Origin: Hahella sp. KA22
GTDB lineage: Bacteria > Pseudomonadota > Gammaproteobacteria > Pseudomonadales > Oleiphilaceae
Direction: 5' to 3'
Assembly (NCBI RefSeq): GCF_004135205.1
Contig: NZ_CP035490.1
Location: forward strand, 310,001-374,000
Length of the DNA: 64,000 nt
Position numbers and translations under genes: made by a program. Within the stretch, counting starts at the first letter, position 1. Every line of letters starts with the position of its first letter. Below are positions 23,119 through 34,176 of this stretch, in pieces. The notes below the pieces were generated by a model that saw nothing but the letters and a program-made list of their open reading frames with translations, searched no databases and was not told the DNA's origin.

Positions 23119-24933
23119 TCACCAATCAATCTGATTGGTTTTGCGGCCGACTTCCTTGGCTTTCTCCGACCATTCGATCCAGGCGTCGGATTCCTGCATC
23201 TGCTGCAGATAGGGGTCAATGTAAGGTTTGAGATAACGATACCCGTACCCCCAGAAGTATTCTTCCACCGCGACGCCAACCACCAGCATAAAGAAAATCA
23301 CTCGCCCCCAGCGAACCGGCGGACGATAGCGACGCTCTTTCTTGGCGACCTGAGACACATGTTTTTTGATCGCCTCCGTCTGCTTGGCCGCCGTTTGCGC
23401 GCGCAGGCTTTTCAACACCCCGCGAATATCCGCCATGGCCACTTCCAGCGAGGGATAGCGTTTTTCCGGACGCGTTTCCAACAGCCGGGTAATCAATTCC
23501 TGTAGCCGGTTATGGAGCTCGGTAAATCTCTTACTGCGCACCAGACGCTGTCCGCGAATCACCGGCGGTTGCCCGGTCAACGCGTGATAGCAGATAGCGC
23601 CCAGCGCGAACATGTCGCCGAGAATGCCCTGGGCGTCGGCATTTTCATACCAGTTCGGCTCGTCTGAATCGGTATAGTGAGCCCGCAAGCCAAAATCCGT
23701 GAGCTTGATGACGCCTTCTTCATCCAATAACAGATTACTGGGGCGCAAATTGCCGTGCACAATTCGGTTGCGGTGGGCGAACGCCAGCCCTTCCGCGATT
23801 TGCTCCGCCCACTCCACCACCTTCACCGCCGGTAATGGAGCCAGCATTTGTTCCGCCATGGAGCCGCCAGGAAGATACTCCGTCACGATAACGTAACCTT
23901 TATCCACCTTCGATACCGCAAGAATCTTGCAGATATTGGGATGATTGAGCCGCGCCAGTAGCTTGTGCTCCTTGATTCCTGGCGTGTCCCCCGGCAGCTT
24001 CTTCATGATCAGCAGCTTCTGCTTGCCCTGATCTTCGTATAGATAGACGGAGCTATGACGATCTTCCTTCAGCACGTCCAACAGGGAAAACTTGGACTCT
24101 ATCGCTTCGCTGTTGGATAGCGCCCGCGCCTTCTGGGCCTTGCTGAGATGGCCGCCTTGCAGAATATGCAGCAACCCGTTTTTCACCTCGTCTGCGGAAG
24201 CCGGCCGCTCCGATGGATCTTTTTCCAGACAGCGCATGATTAGCGAGTTCAAGGCCGGCGCCAATTCCGGCTCAAATTTGCGCGGCGGCGGAATTTCTCC
24301 CTGCGGACAGACTCCTGTGAACAACTCATACATGAGGATGCCCAGCGCATAGATATCGCTCTGCACCGAGGCGGCGTCCGCCGACTTATGCTGTTCCGGC
24401 GCCATATAGGCGGACGTGCCCATAATGTTGCTGGTTTCGGTATGCAGGGTTTTCTGTTTACTGGACGAGTCGTAGAAATGCGCGATGCCAAAATCCAGCA
24501 CCCGCGCCTGCCAATCATTGTCGATGAGAATATTGGAGGGCTTGATATCGCGGTGGATTACGCCGTTCTTGTGCGCGTACGCCAACGCCTTGCACAACTG
24601 CACCAGCACATCCATTTTGCGGGAAAAGTCGAGCTTGCCGCGGTTGATTGCATCCTCAAGGGTCATGCCTTCCACATACTCCATGACGAAATAAGGACGC
24701 CCCTTGCCGGTAACGCCCTTATCGATGACATGGATGATATGAGGATGATTCAGTTGCGCAATGATGAGAGATTCTTTTTCGAAGCGCTCCAGAATCTCAG
24801 GGTGATCTTTCAGGTTGGCGGACAGTATTTTTATGGCGACAGGACGTTGCAGCGACTCTTGCAAGGCTTTGTATACAGTCGCCATGCCGCCCTCGCCCAG
24901 CTTGCTGAGAACTTTGTATCCCTGCCACGCCAT
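23119..24933 (-). CDS. Tandem-domain Ser/Thr protein kinase (kinase plus pseudokinase)
   Basis: 604 residues. The first kinase domain (1-270) is complete: glycine loop LGEGGMATVY (12-21), lysine K35 in VAIKIL, catalytic HRDIKPSN, metal-binding DFG and the APEQ/SDIYALG segment. A second kinase-like domain (about 280-520) keeps LTDFG but has HGNLRPSN in place of HRD, so the catalytic aspartate is Asn; no proper glycine loop is seen. It is most likely a pseudokinase. A basic region, one membrane helix (about residues 549-568) and a roughly 40-residue tail follow. It lies 56 bases downstream of a PP2C gene on the same strand and faces an FHA gene: a typical phosphorylation switch set. Confidence 0.9.
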   Translation of the reverse strand: MAWQGYKVLSKLGEGGMATVYKALQESLQRPVAIKILSANLKDHPEILERFEKESLIIAQLNHPHIIHVIDKGVTGKGRPYFVMEYVEGMTLEDAINRGKLDFSRKMDVLVQLCKALAYAHKNGVIHRDIKPSNILIDNDWQARVLDFGIAHFYDSSSKQKTLHTETSNIMGTSAYMAPEQHKSADAASVQSDIYALGILMYELFTGVCPQGEIPPPRKFEPELAPALNSLIMRCLEKDPSERPASADEVKNGLLHILQGGHLSKAQKARALSNSEAIESKFSLLDVLKEDRHSSVYLYEDQGKQKLLIMKKLPGDTPGIKEHKLLARLNHPNICKILAVSKVDKGYVIVTEYLPGGSMAEQMLAPLPAVKVVEWAEQIAEGLAFAHRNRIVHGNLRPSNLLLDEEGVIKLTDFGLRAHYTDSDEPNWYENADAQGILGDMFALGAICYHALTGQPPVIRGQRLVRSKRFTELHNRLQELITRLLETRPEKRYPSLEVAMADIRGVLKSLRAQTAAKQTEAIKKHVSQVAKKERRYRPPVRWGRVIFFMLVVGVAVEEYFWGYGYRYLKPYIDPYLQQMQESDAWIEWSEKAKEVGRKTNQIDW

Positions 24934-24989: not shown

Positions 24990-25847
24990 TTAAAGAGCGA
25001 ACGCCAGCGCCAAAAACAGTAATGCGGCCAGTATGCCGCCTAAAGCCATGTAACGCCAAGGCCGTCCCGAGGCGGATTGTGATGCGTTCGGCTCGGCGAA
25101 AGGCGGCATGGGTCGGGTTTTTTCACCGGACAAGTCGCGTTTGGGAGTGGCCTTGCTATGCGGCGCGCCGTCTTTATCGGTCACCACCAGCACGGTAACG
25201 TTGTCATCAGCGCCATTGGTCAGTGCGATTTCCACCAGCTCATCTGCTTTACTCTGCGAGTTACCGCGACGCGCCAACACCTCCTGTATCCGCTCCTCGG
25301 ACACCACGCCATGCAGACCATCACTGCACATCAGCCAGACATCCCCCGCCTGACGGGGCACGCGATAGGCGTCAACATGCAACCCACTCTCACCCGCCGC
25401 GCCCACCGCCTGGGTGAGCACATGCCGAATGCGCGCCGCTTCTTCTTCCGATAGTCCGGTGCTGCGCTGTGCGACGGAATGATCTTCCGTCATCTGCATG
25501 ATGAGGTCGTCCCGCAACAGATACACGCGACTGTCGCCCACCCAGGCGACTTCCATTTCATCGGAATGCGCATGCAACGCCACAACGGTGGAGGCCGCGT
25601 AGCCGCGCTCGCCACTGATGTCGTCGCCTAACAGGGATTGATGAGCGAGCAGAATCGCCTGCTCCAATGGATGTCCGGCGTGCACCGCTCTTTGCATGGA
25701 CTGGCACACGCTCGCGCTGGCGACTTCCCCACTGTCGCCCCCTCCAACGCCGTCGGCGACGGCATAGAGACTTGTCGATTCGTCTACTAATCCATTATCC
25801 TGATTTTGCTGCCGCCGGCCGGTATGAGTTGCGAAACCTACTTGCAT
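24990..25847 (-). CDS. PP2C-type Ser/Thr phosphatase, tail-anchored
   Basis: PPM/PP2C phosphatase of about 285 residues. Metal-binding motifs are RQQNQD near the start, AVADGVGGGDSGEVAS, VGDSRVYLL, LMCSDGL and the late GADDNVTVLVV aspartates, all in order. A basic Pro-rich link leads to a single C-terminal membrane helix (LGGILAALLFLALAFAL), so the enzyme hangs from the inner membrane facing the cytoplasm. I place the start at ATG 25847, where the domain begins (MQVGFATHTGRR); ATG 25874 adds nine residues and neither has a strong ribosome site. Expected partner: the kinase just downstream. Confidence 0.9.
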   Translation of the reverse strand: MQVGFATHTGRRQQNQDNGLVDESTSLYAVADGVGGGDSGEVASASVCQSMQRAVHAGHPLEQAILLAHQSLLGDDISGERGYAASTVVALHAHSDEMEVAWVGDSRVYLLRDDLIMQMTEDHSVAQRSTGLSEEEAARIRHVLTQAVGAAGESGLHVDAYRVPRQAGDVWLMCSDGLHGVVSEERIQEVLARRGNSQSKADELVEIALTNGADDNVTVLVVTDKDGAPHSKATPKRDLSGEKTRPMPPFAEPNASQSASGRPWRYMALGGILAALLFLALAFAL

Positions 25848-26026
25848 TAAAAGATTTCCAAGTCCCTGATTCATGGGGATTAAAAAAGTATATTTCTTTA
25901 GTATAGATGGGTTTTCAGTTTAGTTTCCTTGACTATACTCTAAAGTGTTAAAGCGCCTTCTGACCGGCAGAACCTTAATTCAGTAGTCATTTCCACAAGT
26001 GTGAGCTTAACGAGGCCCCTAGCAGC

Positions 26027-26920
26027 ATGCTGAAACTGCAATTCACCGATGGAAGCCGGGAGAGCATCTGGCTGGTAGAACCGCGCCTGAAAATAGGTAA
26101 GCATTCTTCCAACAACCTGATTCTCAACCAGCCGGACATCCAGGACTTTCATGCCGAGATACGTTTGCAGGAGGAACAGCTGTATCTGCTGAACCTCAGC
26201 CCCGACTATATCGTGGGCGTTAACGGTAAAAAGGTGCAAAAAGCCGTAAAAATCAACGAAAACGATACCATCCAACTGGGAAAAGCTCACTTTAAAGTGG
26301 TGCATCCCGGAGCCGAGCATAAACCGAAACACGAAGCGCCGCAAAGCATCGCCCATAATGAATGGGGCCTGCAAACCAACGCCAGTTGGGCCAAGCAGTC
26401 GTTTTATCCAATCGAAGATACGGTCATCATCGGCCGTGACGAACAGTGCGACATCACCGTGCCGGTTTCCCATTTGTCGCGTCAGCACGCCCAGTTGACT
26501 GTGGCGGGAAATTATATGTTGGTCAAGGATTTAGGTTCCACCAACGGTACTTACCTGAACGGCGAGCGCATTACCCAGGGGCGCGCCAAACGAGGCGATC
26601 GCCTGCGATTTGACGTCGTCACCTTTACCGTGACCGGACCCGAGGATGACGGCGACCGCACCATCGTGCGTCCAGACGCCGTCGCGCAGACGCCCTCTCC
26701 CGCGCCAACCGGCGAAGAAACCATCGCCAATAATCCGCAGCCACGCCCAATGCGCCCCGCCGCGCCCCCCAAAGCCGCCAGAAAACCGGCGCAAGAGAAA
26801 CCCGCTCCCGCTCATGAAGTCGCGGTTAAGGCGGAGTCCAAAAGCGGCTATCTGCTTTACACCGTCATTGGTTTCGCCGTGGTGTTCGGCGCTCTGTCAG
26901 CCTTTTTCCTGCTCCGGTAA
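26027..26920 (+). CDS. Two-FHA-domain membrane protein
   Basis: 297 residues. A first, weaker FHA domain (about 20-95; IGKHSSNNLILN, no SxxH/SRxH core) is followed by a complete one (about 125-200) with IGRDEQCDITV, SRQHAQL and DLGSTNGTYLNG, the phosphothreonine-binding residues. A Pro/Ala-rich linker (215-270) and a C-terminal membrane helix (YTVIGFAVVFGALSAFFLL) end the protein, so it is tail-anchored like the phosphatase and carries a helix like the kinase. It is divergent from PP2C-kinase and 105 bases before mksF on the same strand. It likely reads the kinase's phosphorylation state. Confidence 0.88.
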   Translation: MLKLQFTDGSRESIWLVEPRLKIGKHSSNNLILNQPDIQDFHAEIRLQEEQLYLLNLSPDYIVGVNGKKVQKAVKINENDTIQLGKAHFKVVHPGAEHKPKHEAPQSIAHNEWGLQTNASWAKQSFYPIEDTVIIGRDEQCDITVPVSHLSRQHAQLTVAGNYMLVKDLGSTNGTYLNGERITQGRAKRGDRLRFDVVTFTVTGPEDDGDRTIVRPDAVAQTPSPAPTGEETIANNPQPRPMRPAAPPKAARKPAQEKPAPAHEVAVKAESKSGYLLYTVIGFAVVFGALSAFFLLR

Positions 26921-27025
26921 GGATACCGGTCGGGGGATTCCCTGTTACATTTTGCTCATGGGATTTCCTCCACCTTGTCCCTATAATAGGCGGTCGCCCC
27001 AGAACAACCTGCACAGCCGTTACTG

Positions 27026-28501
27026 ATGTCGAATCCAGACCATTTTCAGCAGTTCTTTTCCACAGACTGCCCGCAGTTCTTTCGTCCGCTGACCAGCAAA
27101 TACCGCGAAATGATCGTGGAATGCCTGCGTTTGCTGTATCAACGTTTCTACAGCAGCATGGCGGACTATGGACACGCCCTTAAGCGTGAGCAGATGGTGG
27201 AGATCTTCCAAACCGCCCTGACTCGCGCACCGGAGCTGGAAACCGATGAAGACAGCGAAACCGAAGGGCGTTTCCGTACGGATCGCGACAAGGCCTTGTG
27301 GATTCTCAATACGTTGATCGACTACGGCTGGCTGGAAGTACAGGTGGACGAGGTCACGCTACAGTCCAGCTACCACTTCAGCCGTAAAGGGCGTTTGTTC
27401 ACCCAGCCCTTTGTAGAGCTCAGCGGAGCCTCGGTGCGCACTCGTCACCGCAACACCCGCAATACCCGTAATGCGCTGCGGGCGTTTATTGAAGCTGGCG
27501 AAGTCCACGATCTGCTGGACGCCTATGAATATTCCGAGCGTATCATCAGCGACTTCACCGACATTATTACCGAGTTGGAAGATCGCAAGCGCCAATTGGT
27601 GAAAGAAATAGAGATCACCGCGCTGATCAAACGGGCCAGCGATGAATTCTTCGACTTCATGGACAAACGCTTCCAGCCGGATCTATCCGTGCGTCTGTCG
27701 GCGGACTCCGTGGAGAAACACCGGGACGAGATCATGTCCCAGGTGCGTCAGATTCGCAGACTTCCCAAAGAGACCAAAGCGCACGCGGAAAGCGAGCTGC
27801 GTCGACTGCTTCCGGACCGCGTGGTGGAGGGGCAATCCCTGCTCTGGCTGTTGTTGGACAATATAGAAATCCGACTCACCAACGCTTGCGACATCATGTT
27901 GCCGGCCCTGCGCAGCGCGCTGCGTAACTTCACACGACGCGCGGACATCATTATTCGTCAAATGAGCTATCTGGCCAGCCAGCGCCATAATGACATGGTG
28001 CAGATTTGCCAGGAGCTGACCGAGCTGCCGGCGGAGGAGCAACAGGCGCGTCTGGAGCGCGCAGGAGCCCTGATGGCTAACCTCAATGTCGGCTTGATTG
28101 ACCCCAAACAGATCAGCCTGCGCGAAGGTCGCCGTAAAATTACCGTGGACAGCCGGGTGCTTAACGATGAGCCGCTGGATCAGGGCGCTCGCAAAGAGTT
28201 GTTTATACAGCACGCGCTGGATCAGGCATTCGTCATCAATGACGACCGTACCCGCCAGTATCTGATTCAGGCGCTACGGGGCGGCCAGCGCATCCAGACC
28301 AAACATCTGCCCATTAACGCCGCTCCCGATCTGTTGGCGGCGATGCATGCCGTGGAGCTGGGCTCCGTGTCAGGACTCTCCAGCGAATATGAGTTCGTGG
28401 TAGAGCCGACTGGCGATCTGGTCAGCAATGAATATTTACTGCAGGCGGATGATTTCATCATCGAAGTACGACCGAAAAAAGCGATGCAAGACACCTTATG
28501 A
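27026..28501 (+). CDS. mksF: MksF / JetA-type kleisin subunit
   Basis: 491 residues, matching the kleisin-like subunit of the MukBEF-like condensin Mks, the same family as Wadjet JetA. Seen: an N-terminal winged-helix-like part (about 15-125), a long helical centre with charged heptad-like stretches (about 150-370), and a C-terminal winged-helix-like end. It overlaps mksE by four bases (ATGA). No clear ribosome site precedes the ATG. It would bridge the MksB heads and bind MksE. The family call is from overall pattern, order and operon, not a single motif. Confidence 0.85.
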
Positions 28502-29169
28502 TTCTGAGTCAATGCCTTGAAAATGAACTGTCCTCTGAAGGACTTCAGTTAACGGACTTCAGCGAGCTGGTGCTGCGTCTGCTGGATTACAGCATCATCT
28601 GCCGCGATGAAAGCCTCATAGAACAAACTTTGTATGATCGTTACCTGCGTATCGACAAGCTGGTGGACGATTATCTGTCCGTGCTCGGCGTGCGTCTGCT
28701 GCATGACCGTCAGTTTCAATATATCCGCGCATATCCGCCAGGAGCGGAGGCGCCAGGTCTCGACGATGAGGTGGATCAGCCGTTCAACACTGGCCTGCGC
28801 GCGCGCCTGAACCAGCAGGAAATCGCCTTGATTCTGGTATTACGCAGCCAGTATGACAAAGCCCTGCGAGAGGGCCAGGTGGACGACCAGGGCGGCGTCA
28901 CGCTCAGCTTTGAGGCGCTGTCCATCGCCATGAAGAACCTGCTGCAACGCTCCCTGCCAGAGAATCTGACGGAACGCCGCCAGCTGCTGAAGCGTCTGCG
29001 CCAGTTGCGTCTGTTGCAATTCAGCCAGGAAGACACCCTGGAAAGCGGCGAAAGCTGGGTCCGCATCCGCCCGCAAATCGTCAACTTCGTCAGCGATGAA
29101 GCGCTGTCTGCGTTGCGGGGAGAAGAGGCGCAACAGGAAGACGCAGCGGCGTCCCCGGAAGAAAGCTAA
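28498..29169 (+). CDS. mksE: MksE / JetB-type subunit
   Basis: 223 residues of DUF4194 type, the small winged-helix partner of the kleisin in Mks and Wadjet complexes. Typical features include an early [21 protein letters not shown] region, RTYP-like [15 protein letters not shown], and a late [13 protein letters not shown] helix with an acidic tail. It is translationally coupled to mksF; mksB follows after 67 bases. Confidence 0.87.
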
Positions 29170-29236
29170 CAGGCGGAAGTTGACACCGGGACGGTATAAA
29201 TAAGGCGGCGTCCATCATCAGTGATTTGAGAGCACC

Positions 29237-32200
29237 ATGTTTCTAAAGAAATGCATCTACGTTAACTGGGGCAACATCCCCAACAGCGAATTCGATTTCG
29301 GCCCTATCAACCTGCTTTCCGGGGGCAACGGGTCCGGTAAAACCACGTCGGCGGACGCCATTCAAACAGTGATGACCGCCGCCCACGATTACCTGTTCAC
29401 CTATAACCCGGGCCAGGATGAAACCACGCAACGGGGTCGCGGCGGCAAGCAGGTGCGTACGCTGTCTTCCTATGTGCTCGGTTGCGACGATGGCAGTTTC
29501 GCCCGTCTGGAGCCTACCGAAGGCTATATCGCCGCCTGTTTTCACCCAACGACGGGCGAGTCCGCCGAGCCCTTCACCGCCATTATCTGTTGCCGCGCCC
29601 ACATCGATCAGGCCGGCTCCCAGCGGGTGGCGCGCCAGGACGACCTGTTCTTCCTGATATTACCCGGGGCGGAAATCAGCCTGTCCGATCTGCAGGGCGA
29701 AGACGCCAGCGGCGACAAATTCGTCATGCCCATGGACAAGATCGTGGCGCGCCTGCGCAAGAAATTTGAAGTGGAGAAATACGATACCAAGAAAGGTTAT
29801 CTAAAACGCCTTTACGGCATTCTGCGCGGCAAATCCCATGAGGTGCCCGAGCGGGAGGCGATGAACGCCGCACGCGCATTCTCCCGTTTCATGGCCTATA
29901 AGCCGGTGAAAAGCATCAATGATTTCGTCGCCAATGAAATCCTGGAAAAGAAAGACTTAGGCGAAGCGATCCGCTCCGTCTCCGATCTGCTCAAAACCAT
30001 CCACGGTATGGAGAGCGACGCGTCCCGCCTCAAGAACGCCATTCGCATTCTCAGCGACGTTACGGGCTATGGCGAGAGCTATATTCAACGCTGGATCGAT
30101 TTGAACGTCTGGCAATATGTCGCCGCGCGCCACCAGTATCTGACGGACCAGGAAGCCTATCTCACCGCCAAGAAGCAGCAAAAGTCCTTGCAGGATGAGA
30201 AAGTCTCCAACCAGCAGGAACGTGATACGCTGGAAGCCCGGCATGATCAAATCGAGGGCCGTTTGCTGGAGCTGACCGCCAAACGCATGGGCCATCAGCC
30301 GCTACAGCAGAAAGATGAGCTGGAGAAACTGATCGCCGCCAATGGCCGCGCCCTGCATGAACAGGCGCCGGGGCTGCTGGAGCAGAATCATCGTCTGGAT
30401 TCCATCTTCCAGGCGACCAATAACATCATCAGCCTGATGAAAAACCAGAATATCCTGGATGACGTACCGCGTCTGGGGCACAAGGATGTCTGGGCGGGGG
30501 CCCTGGAGTTCAGCCAACTGAAACAGCACGGACAGGTGGATTTCGCCGCCCTGCTGGGACGCGACTGGGTGGATATATCCCCACTCGAAAGCCACCTCGA
30601 TCAGGCGTTATTAATTCAGCAGAAAGCCAATCAATGGCAGCGCCAGTGGCACGATGGAGAAATCAGCGCCGACGGCGTCAGCTTGCGCGACCAGGTCAGT
30701 CGCGCCCTGCACCGGCGCGAAAGCCTGAATCAGAAACTGGAGCAGCAGCGCCATCAGAAACAGGCGGAAATCGAAAGCCTGGAGACGCGTCAGGTCACTT
30801 ATCCTTACCACGTGAAGACAGCGTTAGAAGCAATTCGCAGGGAATGCCCCGAGGCTGACCCCCGAGTGCTCTGCGATTACGTTGAGATCAAAGACCCCAA
30901 ATGGCAAAACGCCATCGAAGGCTATGTCGGCGGCGGCCGCTTCTCGATTCTGGTGGAGCCGGAATACGAAGCTCGCGCCACCCGCATCCTGCGCTCCCTG
31001 AAAGGCGGCGGACAGGCGCGCGTGATCCAGGGCGAGAAAGCCCGCCGCGATTGCGAGCGCATGAATCTGGACAAAGATTCCATTATCCACGTCATGGAGT
31101 TCAGCCACGCCACCGCGCGCTACTACATTACCGCCAGCTACGGCAACGTACTGCGGGTGCGTTCGGAGGAAGAGTTGCGGATGACCCGTCGCGGCGTCAC
31201 CGCTAACGGCCTGGGCTCCGGCTCTTACAGCATGTTCCGTTGCGATGTGGCCGACAGTGAGCTGGTATTTGGCCAGGAGGCGCGGGAACGCGCTCTGGAT
31301 GCAAAGAGAGAAGAGCTGCAGCAAATCCGCATCGAACACCAACGCGCCAGCGAGCAGTGGCAGGAATTGTCCAATCTGTTGCGCGCCGCGGATCAGATCA
31401 AGCCGCTGTCCTACGCCGATCGCCTGAAAGCCATGCTCGACATTCACCGGGAGCTGCGCGAAGCGGAAGATCGCTTGGCCCATCTCGACCTGGCCGACTT
31501 CGAACAACTGGAGCAAGAGCTGGAGCAGCTCAAGCAACAGGACAAAGAACTCAAGCAGCGTATTGAAGTCCTTCTTAAGCGGGAAGGCAGTCTGCAAACC
31601 GAGCTGGCGCAGAAGGCGGATCTCTGTAAAGCGCTCAGCGAACGTAAAGACGCTTCGGAAACCAAGCAGGACGAGAAAGAAGAGTCTCTGCGCTCAATTG
31701 TGTCCCTGTGGCCGAATTTCGATAGCGAAGCGCGTCTGCAGGAAGCGGATCAATGTGCGGAAAGCATCCGTTCCGATCAGCTGCATCTGGAGTTGCAGGA
31801 TACTCAATCCAATATCGAAAGCCTGGCGCGACAGTTCGAGAACAAACTGATTGAGCACAACCAGACGAGCAATCCGCTGGATCAGATCGCCTATCTGCCT
31901 GACTATGACCAGATGCACAACCGCGCCTTCTTCAGCCGCATTTGTGAAGTCAGCCGGGAAATCGACAAAATTCGCAACCGCCTGAAAAACAACATTCTGG
32001 TGGAGAAACAAGAGAAGCTGACGCAGTTGAAACTGGCGTTCAACAACACTTTCGTCACCCATCTCTGCCACGCCATCTATCAGGCCATCAATGACGGCAA
32101 GAAGATCCTGGAGGACATGAACCGCGAGCTGGAGCACCATCGTTTCGGCGCCGATCGCGAATCCTTCCGCTTCGACTGGACCTGGGTGCCGGAATTCAAG

Positions 32201-32866
32201 GAATACTGGGATTTCTTCAAGGAAATCATCGCCCTGCCCAATCTCGGCGAAGGCGCGACGCTGTTTGACGCAGAGTTGTCGAAGAAAGCCTCGCAAGTGC
32301 GCGATCGCATGATGGCGATGTTGCTGTCCGACGACGAGCAAAAAGCGATGCGGGAACTTGAACGCATCTCGGATTATCGCAACTACCGCAATTACGAGAT
32401 CTACAAGGAGCCGCAGGGCAAGCAGCCGATTCCGCTGTCTCAGTATGGCACCGGCAGCGGCGGCCAGTTGGAGACCCCGGCTTACATCATCCGCTCAGCG
32501 GCGATCACCTCCGCATTCCGCTTCAACGAGGGCGACAGCCATCTGCGCATGGTGCTGGTGGACGAAGCCTTCTCGAAAATGGACGAAACACGCTCCCGCG
32601 AGGTCATCAATTATCTGACCCAGACCCTGGGCCTGCAGCTGGTATTCATTATGCCAACCAGCAAATCCGGCCCCTTCATGGACCTGATCAGCAACCAATT
32701 CGTGTTCACCAAATGCCCCACCACCCGCCCGGTTGGTGAACTACAAACCCGCGTTCTGGTGGACAGGCAAAAATGCAATCAGGAAAAAATCGCCGAACTC
32801 TGGGCCAACCACCGCAAACAGATCCGCCACCAGTTCGCTCTGGATTTTATGGAGGAATTTGGTTAA
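29237..32866 (+). CDS. mksB: MksB / JetC-type SMC ATPase
   Basis: 1209-residue SMC-like ATPase. Walker A GGNGSGKTT is at 29-37; long coiled-coil arms fill about 290-530 and 680-960 with a hinge-like block around 530-680; the ABC-type signature YGTGSGGQLETP lies near 1068-1079 and Walker B MVLVDEAFSKMD near 1104-1115. This is the MukB-like branch (MksB, JetC) rather than classical Smc. Size and composition fit a complete protein. It ends the operon; a JetD/MksG-type nuclease, which follows in Wadjet loci, is not found. It may therefore work in chromosome folding instead of plasmid restriction. Confidence 0.9.
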   Translation: MFLKKCIYVNWGNIPNSEFDFGPINLLSGGNGSGKTTSADAIQTVMTAAHDYLFTYNPGQDETTQRGRGGKQVRTLSSYVLGCDDGSFARLEPTEGYIAACFHPTTGESAEPFTAIICCRAHIDQAGSQRVARQDDLFFLILPGAEISLSDLQGEDASGDKFVMPMDKIVARLRKKFEVEKYDTKKGYLKRLYGILRGKSHEVPEREAMNAARAFSRFMAYKPVKSINDFVANEILEKKDLGEAIRSVSDLLKTIHGMESDASRLKNAIRILSDVTGYGESYIQRWIDLNVWQYVAARHQYLTDQEAYLTAKKQQKSLQDEKVSNQQERDTLEARHDQIEGRLLELTAKRMGHQPLQQKDELEKLIAANGRALHEQAPGLLEQNHRLDSIFQATNNIISLMKNQNILDDVPRLGHKDVWAGALEFSQLKQHGQVDFAALLGRDWVDISPLESHLDQALLIQQKANQWQRQWHDGEISADGVSLRDQVSRALHRRESLNQKLEQQRHQKQAEIESLETRQVTYPYHVKTALEAIRRECPEADPRVLCDYVEIKDPKWQNAIEGYVGGGRFSILVEPEYEARATRILRSLKGGGQARVIQGEKARRDCERMNLDKDSIIHVMEFSHATARYYITASYGNVLRVRSEEELRMTRRGVTANGLGSGSYSMFRCDVADSELVFGQEARERALDAKREELQQIRIEHQRASEQWQELSNLLRAADQIKPLSYADRLKAMLDIHRELREAEDRLAHLDLADFEQLEQELEQLKQQDKELKQRIEVLLKREGSLQTELAQKADLCKALSERKDASETKQDEKEESLRSIVSLWPNFDSEARLQEADQCAESIRSDQLHLELQDTQSNIESLARQFENKLIEHNQTSNPLDQIAYLPDYDQMHNRAFFSRICEVSREIDKIRNRLKNNILVEKQEKLTQLKLAFNNTFVTHLCHAIYQAINDGKKILEDMNRELEHHRFGADRESFRFDWTWVPEFKEYWDFFKEIIALPNLGEGATLFDAELSKKASQVRDRMMAMLLSDDEQKAMRELERISDYRNYRNYEIYKEPQGKQPIPLSQYGTGSGGQLETPAYIIRSAAITSAFRFNEGDSHLRMVLVDEAFSKMDETRSREVINYLTQTLGLQLVFIMPTSKSGPFMDLISNQFVFTKCPTTRPVGELQTRVLVDRQKCNQEKIAELWANHRKQIRHQFALDFMEEFG

Positions 32867-32943
32867 TCCCCAACAAACCGAGACTATACCATTTGGGAAA
32901 TTAAACATTTAGAACATGGACGTTACTATCACTAGTTTTAGCT

Positions 32944-32959
32944 CTCTAGAACTCTAGAG
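32944..32959. promoter_or_regulatory. Perfect 16-base palindrome upstream of hydrolase gene
   Basis: CTCTAGA-AC-TCTAGAG, seven-base arms around two bases, ends 36 bases before the ATG of the next gene. Operator-like; protein unknown. Confidence 0.5.
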
Positions 32960-32995
32960 GGGAACAACAGCGAATATAGTTTACAAGGATGAGAC

Positions 32996-33634
32996 ATGTC
33001 CAAAGTAGAGTTTTTTGTTGGCGGTGGTGGAGATAAAAAGGACTGGATAACAACTATAGCAGCCCCAACCAATTTGATGGAAAGCGTCAAAAATTATCGT
33101 CAAAAATCCGCGCCTAATATTACCTGCTATTACTACGGTCACGAAGAAGAAACACTCATCCTGACTAATATTAAGTCTAAGTGGAAATCAGGCGAATACA
33201 AAAGCATACGGTTAACAGGCCATAGCTGGGGAGGGCAAGCCGTTATGGACATAGCCCAGCAGCTTTTCAGTCTAAGCATTCCTGTTGACGAACTCATTAC
33301 TTTAGATCCAGTTTCTTTATGGCCGTTCAGCAAAGTAATGGTTGCCAAATGGGTGAATATCTATATAAAACAGTCACTCATAGATAATACTATCGGAAAA
33401 ATCCCTTTGGTTGGCAACATTGCCAGTAGCTTACTATCCCTACCTTCTTTAGCTACTCAATCCGGTAGATCCGGCGGCTATATAGCTAATGTAGGAGGAC
33501 AATTAGGAGAGGAAAATGGCGCTTATAATATTGAGTTGGATGTGACACATGCAGATGCGTTGTTAATGTATAAGAAAGCCCGTGAAGAGATGAGCCATGC
33601 TCCTCTAAACCCTAAAGTTATAGGCGTCAAGTAA
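32996..33634 (+). CDS. Small Ser-Asp-His hydrolase without signal peptide, possible lipase effector
   Basis: 212 residues, alpha/beta-hydrolase type. A likely triad is S77 in GHSWGG, D104 in ITLDPVS and H185 in DVTHAD, spaced as in short lipases. A hydrophobic stretch lies at about 133-152. There is no signal peptide. AAGGATGAG precedes the ATG. Base use is clearly more AT-rich than the neighbouring mks genes, which suggests transfer. The stop overlaps the start of a lipoprotein gene (TAATG). A cytoplasmic lipase coupled to a periplasmic lipoprotein is the arrangement of type VI lipase effector/immunity pairs, but no secretion gene is in the window, so this is inference. Confidence 0.7.
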   Translation: MSKVEFFVGGGGDKKDWITTIAAPTNLMESVKNYRQKSAPNITCYYYGHEEETLILTNIKSKWKSGEYKSIRLTGHSWGGQAVMDIAQQLFSLSIPVDELITLDPVSLWPFSKVMVAKWVNIYIKQSLIDNTIGKIPLVGNIASSLLSLPSLATQSGRSGGYIANVGGQLGEENGAYNIELDVTHADALLMYKKAREEMSHAPLNPKVIGVK

Positions 33635-34176
33635 TGATTCGAGTGAAAGATATTTATATGTTACTGCCAGCTCTATCAATTTACGCAGGGCTTAGCGGTT
33701 GCGCCAGTGAGCAGGTACTCATTACCGATCCTACTGTTGCAGTTGCCCACATTTCCAAAGGGAATCAAAGCCTGGATTTATTTCCAGGCCGTTATCTCAG
33801 TATCGCATTTAGCGCCAATAGTGAGCATATCGATACACGCGATCCACTTTTGCAAGTTCGGGCGGAACTTTTTAAAGATGGCCGCTCGGTGGGCAGTTCA
33901 ATCGCGATGGGTCCGTATGTCATTAGCAATAATCAAATCGATGAGCGACATTTTAATGGTCAGCGTTATATCGCCTTCGATTTCTCCAATCTAATGGTGG
34001 AATCAGACCATGGCGAAATTTCCGTTGCCTTGGCTGAATCCGATTTTGACAAAGTTGAGTTCCAACTCCGATATCCTCTCATGGGAACTGGTTTTAAATT
34101 CATCAGTAACCCTGTTTCCTTCTCCAAAACAGAAATTCTGAACTCGCTTAAACTGCCCCCAGTCAAGTACGAGTAG
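33634..34176 (+). CDS. Lipoprotein coupled to the hydrolase gene, possible immunity protein
   Basis: 180 residues with a lipoprotein signal: hydrophobic core and lipobox L20-S-G-C23, next residue Ala, so outer-membrane or periplasmic location is likely. The mature part is beta-rich (HISKGNQSLDLFPGRYLSI; alternating strands to the end) and may form an Ig-like sandwich. I do not recognise the family. It starts within the hydrolase stop codon, shares its AT-rich base use, and ends before a GC-typical gene. Context suggests it neutralises or carries the hydrolase. Confidence 0.65.
   Translation: MIRVKDIYMLLPALSIYAGLSGCASEQVLITDPTVAVAHISKGNQSLDLFPGRYLSIAFSANSEHIDTRDPLLQVRAELFKDGRSVGSSIAMGPYVISNNQIDERHFNGQRYIAFDFSNLMVESDHGEISVALAESDFDKVEFQLRYPLMGTGFKFISNPVSFSKTEILNSLKLPPVKYE

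Follow-up and report, generated by a model that had tools for sequence, protein, structure and literature searches.

Overall, we believe that the jetABC operon of Hahella sp. KA22 is likely, though not certainly, an MksBEF-like condensin acting on the chromosome, one that derives from a type I Wadjet system by loss of the nuclease gene jetD and that stands beside an independent signalling module. The operon lies in the window, the 64,000-nucleotide stretch analysed here, which belongs to a 6.96 Mb genome in a single contig. On this reading jetABC would encode a full SMC complex (kleisin, KITE subunit and ATPase) descended from the type I Wadjet anti-plasmid system; JetD would have been lost from the ancestral Wadjet, and the complex, deprived of its cutter, would form loops on host DNA in an ATP-driven manner alongside Smc-ScpAB. 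Its genes would be transcribed from their own promoter just upstream of jetA, and the neighbouring kinase, PP2C and FHA genes would form a phospho-signalling module, tethered to the membrane, that is older and widespread and took its place next to jetABC in the ancestor of Hahella, with no regulatory link required by the data. The data show directly which genes are present, that jetD is missing here and paired with jetC in relatives, that the two gene sets are distributed separately and that selection is purifying; the condensin activity, the use of the promoter and the loss of jetD (as opposed to its gain) are inferred. The main interest of the locus is the repeated presence and absence of jetD within one JetC subfamily. 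The features of the block, in window coordinates, are as follows.

23119..24933, minus strand: Ser/Thr kinase, 604 aa (open reading frame, Pkinase match)
24990..25874, minus strand: PP2C phosphatase, 294 aa (open reading frame, PP2C match)
26027..26920, plus strand: two-FHA protein, 297 aa (open reading frame, FHA match)
26982..26987, plus strand: TATAAT, candidate -10 box of jetABC within the FHA-jetA gap (sequence, conservation)
27026..28501, plus strand: jetA / mksF, kleisin, 491 aa (PF18982, PADLOC JetA1)
28498..29169, plus strand: jetB / mksE, KITE subunit, 223 aa (PF13835, PADLOC JetB1)
29237..32866, plus strand: jetC / mksB, SMC-like ATPase, 1209 aa (SbcC Walker B, PADLOC JetC1)
32867..32995, plus strand: place after jetC that jetD occupies in many JetD-bearing relatives, here 129 bases to the next called gene

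The preliminary description placed a PP2C and a kinase gene on the minus strand and a divergent two-FHA gene 105 bases before mksF-mksE-mksB, and open reading frames and family profiles confirm that layout, one small correction being that the kinase gene falls outside the interval (24990-32866) it had assigned to the block. The kinase matches Pkinase in two stretches (268.5 bits), the phosphatase matches the PP2C family (43.9 bits), and the FHA protein matches the FHA family, again in two stretches (106 bits). The three Jet proteins, found in the operon order A-B-C with a 4-base overlap between jetA and jetB, match PF18982 (JetA, 82.2 bits), DUF4194 (PF13835; JetB, 120.6 bits) and SbcC Walker B (JetC, 69.8 bits), and all are matched over nearly their full length by the PADLOC type I profiles JetA1, JetB1 and JetC1 (765, 344 and 2014 bits). 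Downstream of jetC, at 32996-34176, the window carries a serine-hydrolase-like gene with a GHSWGG motif followed by a lipoprotein-like gene. Both are found in one close Hahella genome (G002) at 100% and 98.9% identity and are absent from the same place in two others (G001, G005), so that the pair looks recently moved; we take it to resemble a type VI lipase effector with its immunity lipoprotein.

That the mksFEB operon lacks JetD was claimed from the window, and the genome-wide search proposed along with that claim, run here by profile, bears it out: neither PF09983 (JetD_C) nor a profile built from JetD proteins found together with JetC of this subfamily has any match in the whole genome of the window. 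JetD is absent genome-wide in six of the seven Hahella genomes and partial in the seventh, that of PL25b. Both profiles detect the PL25b protein and can thus see this subfamily, four of whose JetD proteins, PL25b's included, reach 32.2 to 36.0 bits where the cut-off is 22. At 220 aa, the PL25b protein covers positions 166-383 of 384, that is, the Toprim half, and is missing the first half. The protein could have been truncated, or could be naturally short, since PADLOC holds a 234-aa JetD profile that also matches it; a short working JetD may therefore exist in this strain. The same PL25b locus (L049:7019-14307) combines the Toprim-only JetD with a loss running from the end of jetA into the start of jetB, a result of decay or of an assembly fault, and because of that second loss we regard PL25b, a metagenome-assembled genome, as a doubtful intermediate.

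The wider JetC subfamily places this absence in context. JetC matches occur in 19 of 58 near genomes, the window's own included (a few are short or distant), in 88 of 390 genomes of the order (E <= 1e-30), and in 316 stretches of GTDB contigs, the best 80 of which were fetched. After removal of four duplicates (L045, L047, L048, L049) and two distant loci (L035, L036), 91 JetC rows remained, including that of the window. Of these, 20 carry jetD, one (a Hahella) carries part of it, 65 are without it, and the five that have less than 1.5 kb after JetC were left unscored. A row was scored as absent when the stretch of up to 4 kb following JetC (1.9 kb in L090) gave no JetD match, and the 20 positive rows take in one with jetD 1.4 kb beyond JetC (L096), as well as two from metagenome-assembled genomes: one in which jetD lies in two frames (L118:13629-14786) and another in which it faces jetC and is cut by the contig end (L076:5891-6898). 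The preliminary description had held that a jetD paired with this operon elsewhere would speak against its reading; such a pairing does exist in 20 of the 86 readable rows, with the partial copy in one Hahella, and the genome of the window is without it.

On a FastTree JetC tree the jetD state needs at least 11 changes, compared with a mean of 18.3 after shuffling, and the trait is therefore partly inherited, yet has changed often. Sister species are even divided: jetD is present in Microbulbifer donghaiensis and absent in M. marinus, and likewise present in Sedimenticola selenatireducens and absent in S. hydrogenitrophicus. The change counts do not separate gain from loss, and it is from the Wadjet literature, the tree being silent, that we infer loss as the probable direction. 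We also searched whole genomes in which jetC has no adjacent jetD (G000-G002, G004-G006, G012, G015, G019, G024, G029, G034, G037 and G041, the assembly of G019 being fragmented). JetD_C is matched in just two of these 14, G015 and G024, and nowhere in the other 12.

Even without its nuclease the complex is under strong constraint. The SMC ATPase motifs of JetC are intact, and the columns of Walker A (G29-T37), the signature (S1068-Q1077) and Walker B (V1106-D1116) are invariant or nearly so in an 11-row alignment. Set against three close Hahella genomes, the window gives dN/dS values of 0.010-0.017 (JetC), 0.011-0.018 (JetA) and 0.012-0.023 (JetB), next to 0.039-0.046 (kinase), 0.073-0.080 (PP2C) and 0.050-0.076 (FHA protein); these values come from the three close pairs only, the three diverged Hahella having been left out because their synonymous sites are near saturation. 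The complex is thus strongly kept in the absence of JetD, and its function is most likely of use to the host, a pattern consistent with a condensin role of the MksBEF type. ScpA is found in all seven Hahella genomes, so that a Smc-ScpAB complex is likely to be there as well, judging from that one subunit. Structural comparison added little: the AlphaFold2 model of JetA (mean pLDDT 63.4, pTM 0.37) is too poor for a fold search, and sequence searches of solved structures returned no match for JetA or for the JetC profile and only chance-level matches for JetC on its own.

These data bear on two other readings of the operon. One would make jetABC a decaying Wadjet leftover, in keeping with PL25b, where jetA lacks its end, jetB its start and jetD its first half; we consider it very improbable, since the jetA, jetB and jetC frames are intact in each of the six other Hahella genomes and the close pairs show the low dN/dS just given. 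The other would have defence retained, with JetABC sensing circular DNA and a nuclease supplied in trans, or with loop extrusion alone blocking plasmids. The same JetABC subfamily does carry JetD in other species, and G015 and G024 hold JetD_C genes away from jetC, but neither JetD_C nor the subfamily JetD occurs in six of the seven Hahella, and fast-changing defence genes are not expected to show such very low dN/dS. We therefore regard retained defence as improbable, and a nuclease-free chromosomal condensin remains the reading that we favour.

Comparison with described systems points the same way. The operon resembles type I Wadjet (JetABCD / MksBEFG / EptABCD) in that its JetA, JetB and JetC match the type I profiles and relatives carry a type I JetD beside jetC, but the genome of the window is without JetD; with the JetABC part in place and the JetD part missing, it is by definition not a Wadjet system and fits the description of MksBEF instead. 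By description it resembles the Pseudomonas aeruginosa MksBEF in being a kleisin-KITE-SMC operon that lacks a nuclease, in a genome with ScpA, but in the passages covered no kinase/PP2C/FHA partner is described for the P. aeruginosa complex. The review PMC10586767 already proposes that this complex originated by JetD loss and that it acts on the chromosome, and PMC10123090 and PMC7083940 describe a Corynebacterium MksBEFG that includes MksG; the structures are covered by a review (PMC10512200). A possible sequence marker for the loss was considered and rejected. The JetB N-terminus is described in PMC10586767 as bearing an IFDR motif, considered here for contact with JetD, and the LYDR at JetB residues 45-48, its putative equivalent only, is kept in nearly all rows, JetD-bearing or not. 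Separately, the jetB-jetC gap is about 2.2 kb in two Hahella loci: in strain CCB-MM4 (L024:9946-11792) it holds genes for an Ada protein and a PF09859 oxygenase, a family concerned, in Pfam's words, with oxidative methylation of damaged DNA, and in G006 (L025) two frames of like size occupy the same place, the Pfam run having covered the CCB-MM4 pair only.

We turn now to the signalling genes. Within the genus, the association predicted by the preliminary description is complete: the order kinase-PP2C, divergent from FHA-jetABC, is kept in every one of the seven Hahella genomes (that of the window among them), with FHA identity as low as about 65% and, in the three diverged Hahella, JetC identity of 71-77%. 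The window's downstream genes are unmatched in the three diverged Hahella (4 kb viewed), and its upstream genes are matched in G004 and G006 and unmatched in G003, the PL25b genome. When two 20-kb pieces of the window were compared at the DNA level with these genomes, matches in G003 were scattered over ten contigs, while G004 and G006 were largely collinear with the piece lying upstream of the block and had scattered matches to the downstream one. The linkage in G004 and G006 is thus unremarkable, and the kept FHA-jetA junction stands above this background, a rough estimate from 40 of the 64 kb in three genomes, in G003 only; selection for proximity of the trio and jetABC in Hahella is possible.

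Outside Hahella the neighbourhood dissolves. FHA matches occur in 50 of 196 relatives (E <= 1e-8; the count includes the seven Hahella and matches with a single FHA domain), and 20 loci were fetched from the 23 best-scoring non-Hahella genomes. Fifteen of these carry the same divergent trio, and none of the 20 has a jet gene in the stretch covered, which in L126 ends 17 bases after FHA. Adjacency was likewise not found in any of the 12 genomes of other genera that hold both FHA and JetC: in five the two lie 0.3-2.9 Mb apart on one contig, in six on different contigs (the separation in G090 and G093 being judged by contig numbers alone), and in the twelfth, G019, a frame that by eye we would call mutL-like adjoins jetA. 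G054, with a distant JetC and a one-domain FHA match, was excluded from the 12, and there too they are on different contigs. Each part also occurs alone. The single contig of G029 encodes JetA, JetB and JetC, and in it neither the kinase (E <= 1e-60) nor FHA (E <= 1e-8) was matched; G010, G023 and G033 have the trio and no JetC match. The 80 named JetC loci, which are the best 80 of 316 and include several with short flanks, show the trio in the three Hahella loci only. Two others have signalling frames without FHA: a kinase-like one about 6.5 kb upstream of jetA in L064, and a PP2C and a kinase frame roughly 8 kb downstream from jetC in L073. The signalling and mks genes, then, are neighbours in seven of seven Hahella and were not found as neighbours in any of the 12 other genomes that have both, so that the conserved neighbourhood expected by the preliminary description holds inside the genus and fails beyond it. 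The association is most likely a genus-level neighbourhood.

The gap between FHA and jetA, 105 bases in the window and 67-187 bases in the six other Hahella genomes, offers a further hint of separateness. A TATAAT lies inside it in all seven, though most of the gap has diverged between groups; six share the longer CTATAATAGGCG, and G003 has TATAAT only, which the alignment does not line up and which a look-up finds starting 14 bases before the called ORF start. On the same look-up, which reached up to 360 bases before an anchor in JetA, 7 of the 78 non-Hahella rows have an exact TATAAT; the 78 include one duplicate (L048), which has no match. No good -35 was seen for the box in the gap, and a consensus promoter scan, which found 5 promoter-like sites against 7.5 expected, does not list it; it is conservation alone that makes it a candidate. 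Given that conservation, jetABC may have its own promoter upstream of jetA, and the candidate -10 box would argue against simple co-transcription of FHA with jetABC. With this candidate and the separate distributions outside Hahella, the proposal of a single system uniting the signalling genes with the SMC complex finds no support.

The first kinase domain is canonical (HRDIKP, DFG), and the second has HGN in place of HRD and is on that account probably a pseudokinase. Of the 16 listed kinase frames from other genera, 9 likewise have HGN for HRD, and most of the others are longer kinases built differently. The kinase search (E <= 1e-60) gives a single match in each of the seven Hahella genomes. 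C-terminal membrane helices are predicted in PP2C (273-294) and in the FHA protein (273-297), and the window kinase has a borderline hydrophobic stretch from residue 545 (1.58, threshold 1.6) that passes the threshold in several orthologues. By eye, the second FHA domain reads as canonical and the first as degenerate. We take the set to be comparable to the type VI secretion set PpkA-PppA-Fha. With PknB/Stp1 pairs and PpkA-PppA-Fha it shares a Hanks-type kinase, an Stp1-like PP2C and an FHA protein, but its NCBIfam scores fall under the cut-offs (PknB-PASTA 378 against 450, Stp1 153 against 230 bits), and its FHA and PP2C proteins are predicted to be tail-anchored. For TIGR03354, the type VI secretion FHA protein TagH, the FHA protein scores 58.3 bits, likewise under the cut-off (120.25). 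Across the order, the divergent kinase/PP2C/two-FHA module of the 15 trio loci (among L125-L144) often has C-terminal membrane helices, and the module may merit separate study. In two of the fetched FHA loci, from two families (L133, L143), the FHA gene is followed a few genes downstream by a frame that by eye looks topoisomerase I-like.

Could the two parts nonetheless work together in Hahella? The kinase might phosphorylate a threonine of a Jet protein, the tail-anchored FHA protein bind it and so tether or gate the SMC complex at the membrane, and PP2C reset the switch. For this one can cite the intact block in all seven Hahella despite a changed downstream flank in the diverged three, the predicted tail anchors of FHA and PP2C, and the dependence of MksB localisation on the polar scaffold DivIVA in C. 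glutamicum, reported in PMC10123090. There is also JetA residue 63 (codon at window 27212-27214): all seven Hahella have Thr there, and Glu stands in 70 of the 76 other rows that have a letter at that position. That residue was picked post hoc, however, and threonine accounts for 4 of 73 Hahella-specific columns (0.055), roughly the top of the 0.015-0.054 range of five control clades, one of which, Microbulbifer, has a similar acid-to-Ser column; as a phospho-site signal, threonine enrichment is not clear over these controls and was set aside. The separate distributions of the trio and jetABC and the candidate separate promoter also weigh against a switch. Among the matches listed in the open PMC literature, no title or abstract joins Mks or Jet to an FHA or kinase module. 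A phosphorylation switch on JetABC is thus possible but unsupported, and we think it unlikely; the more specific scheme, in which FHA captures a phosphothreonine on the kleisin, such as Thr63, and thereby moves or gates a nuclease-free condensin at the membrane in Hahella, we would call a long shot. The idea is weak, though a phospho-switched SMC complex would be new, if true.

Regardless of any such link, what matters most at this locus is the patchy occurrence of jetD. In this context, the JetC subfamily represents a natural series in which to ask how an SMC machine directed against plasmids turns into one that acts on the chromosome, and its close species with and without jetD, such as the Microbulbifer and Sedimenticola pairs, could allow a direct comparison of plasmid restriction with chromosome folding.
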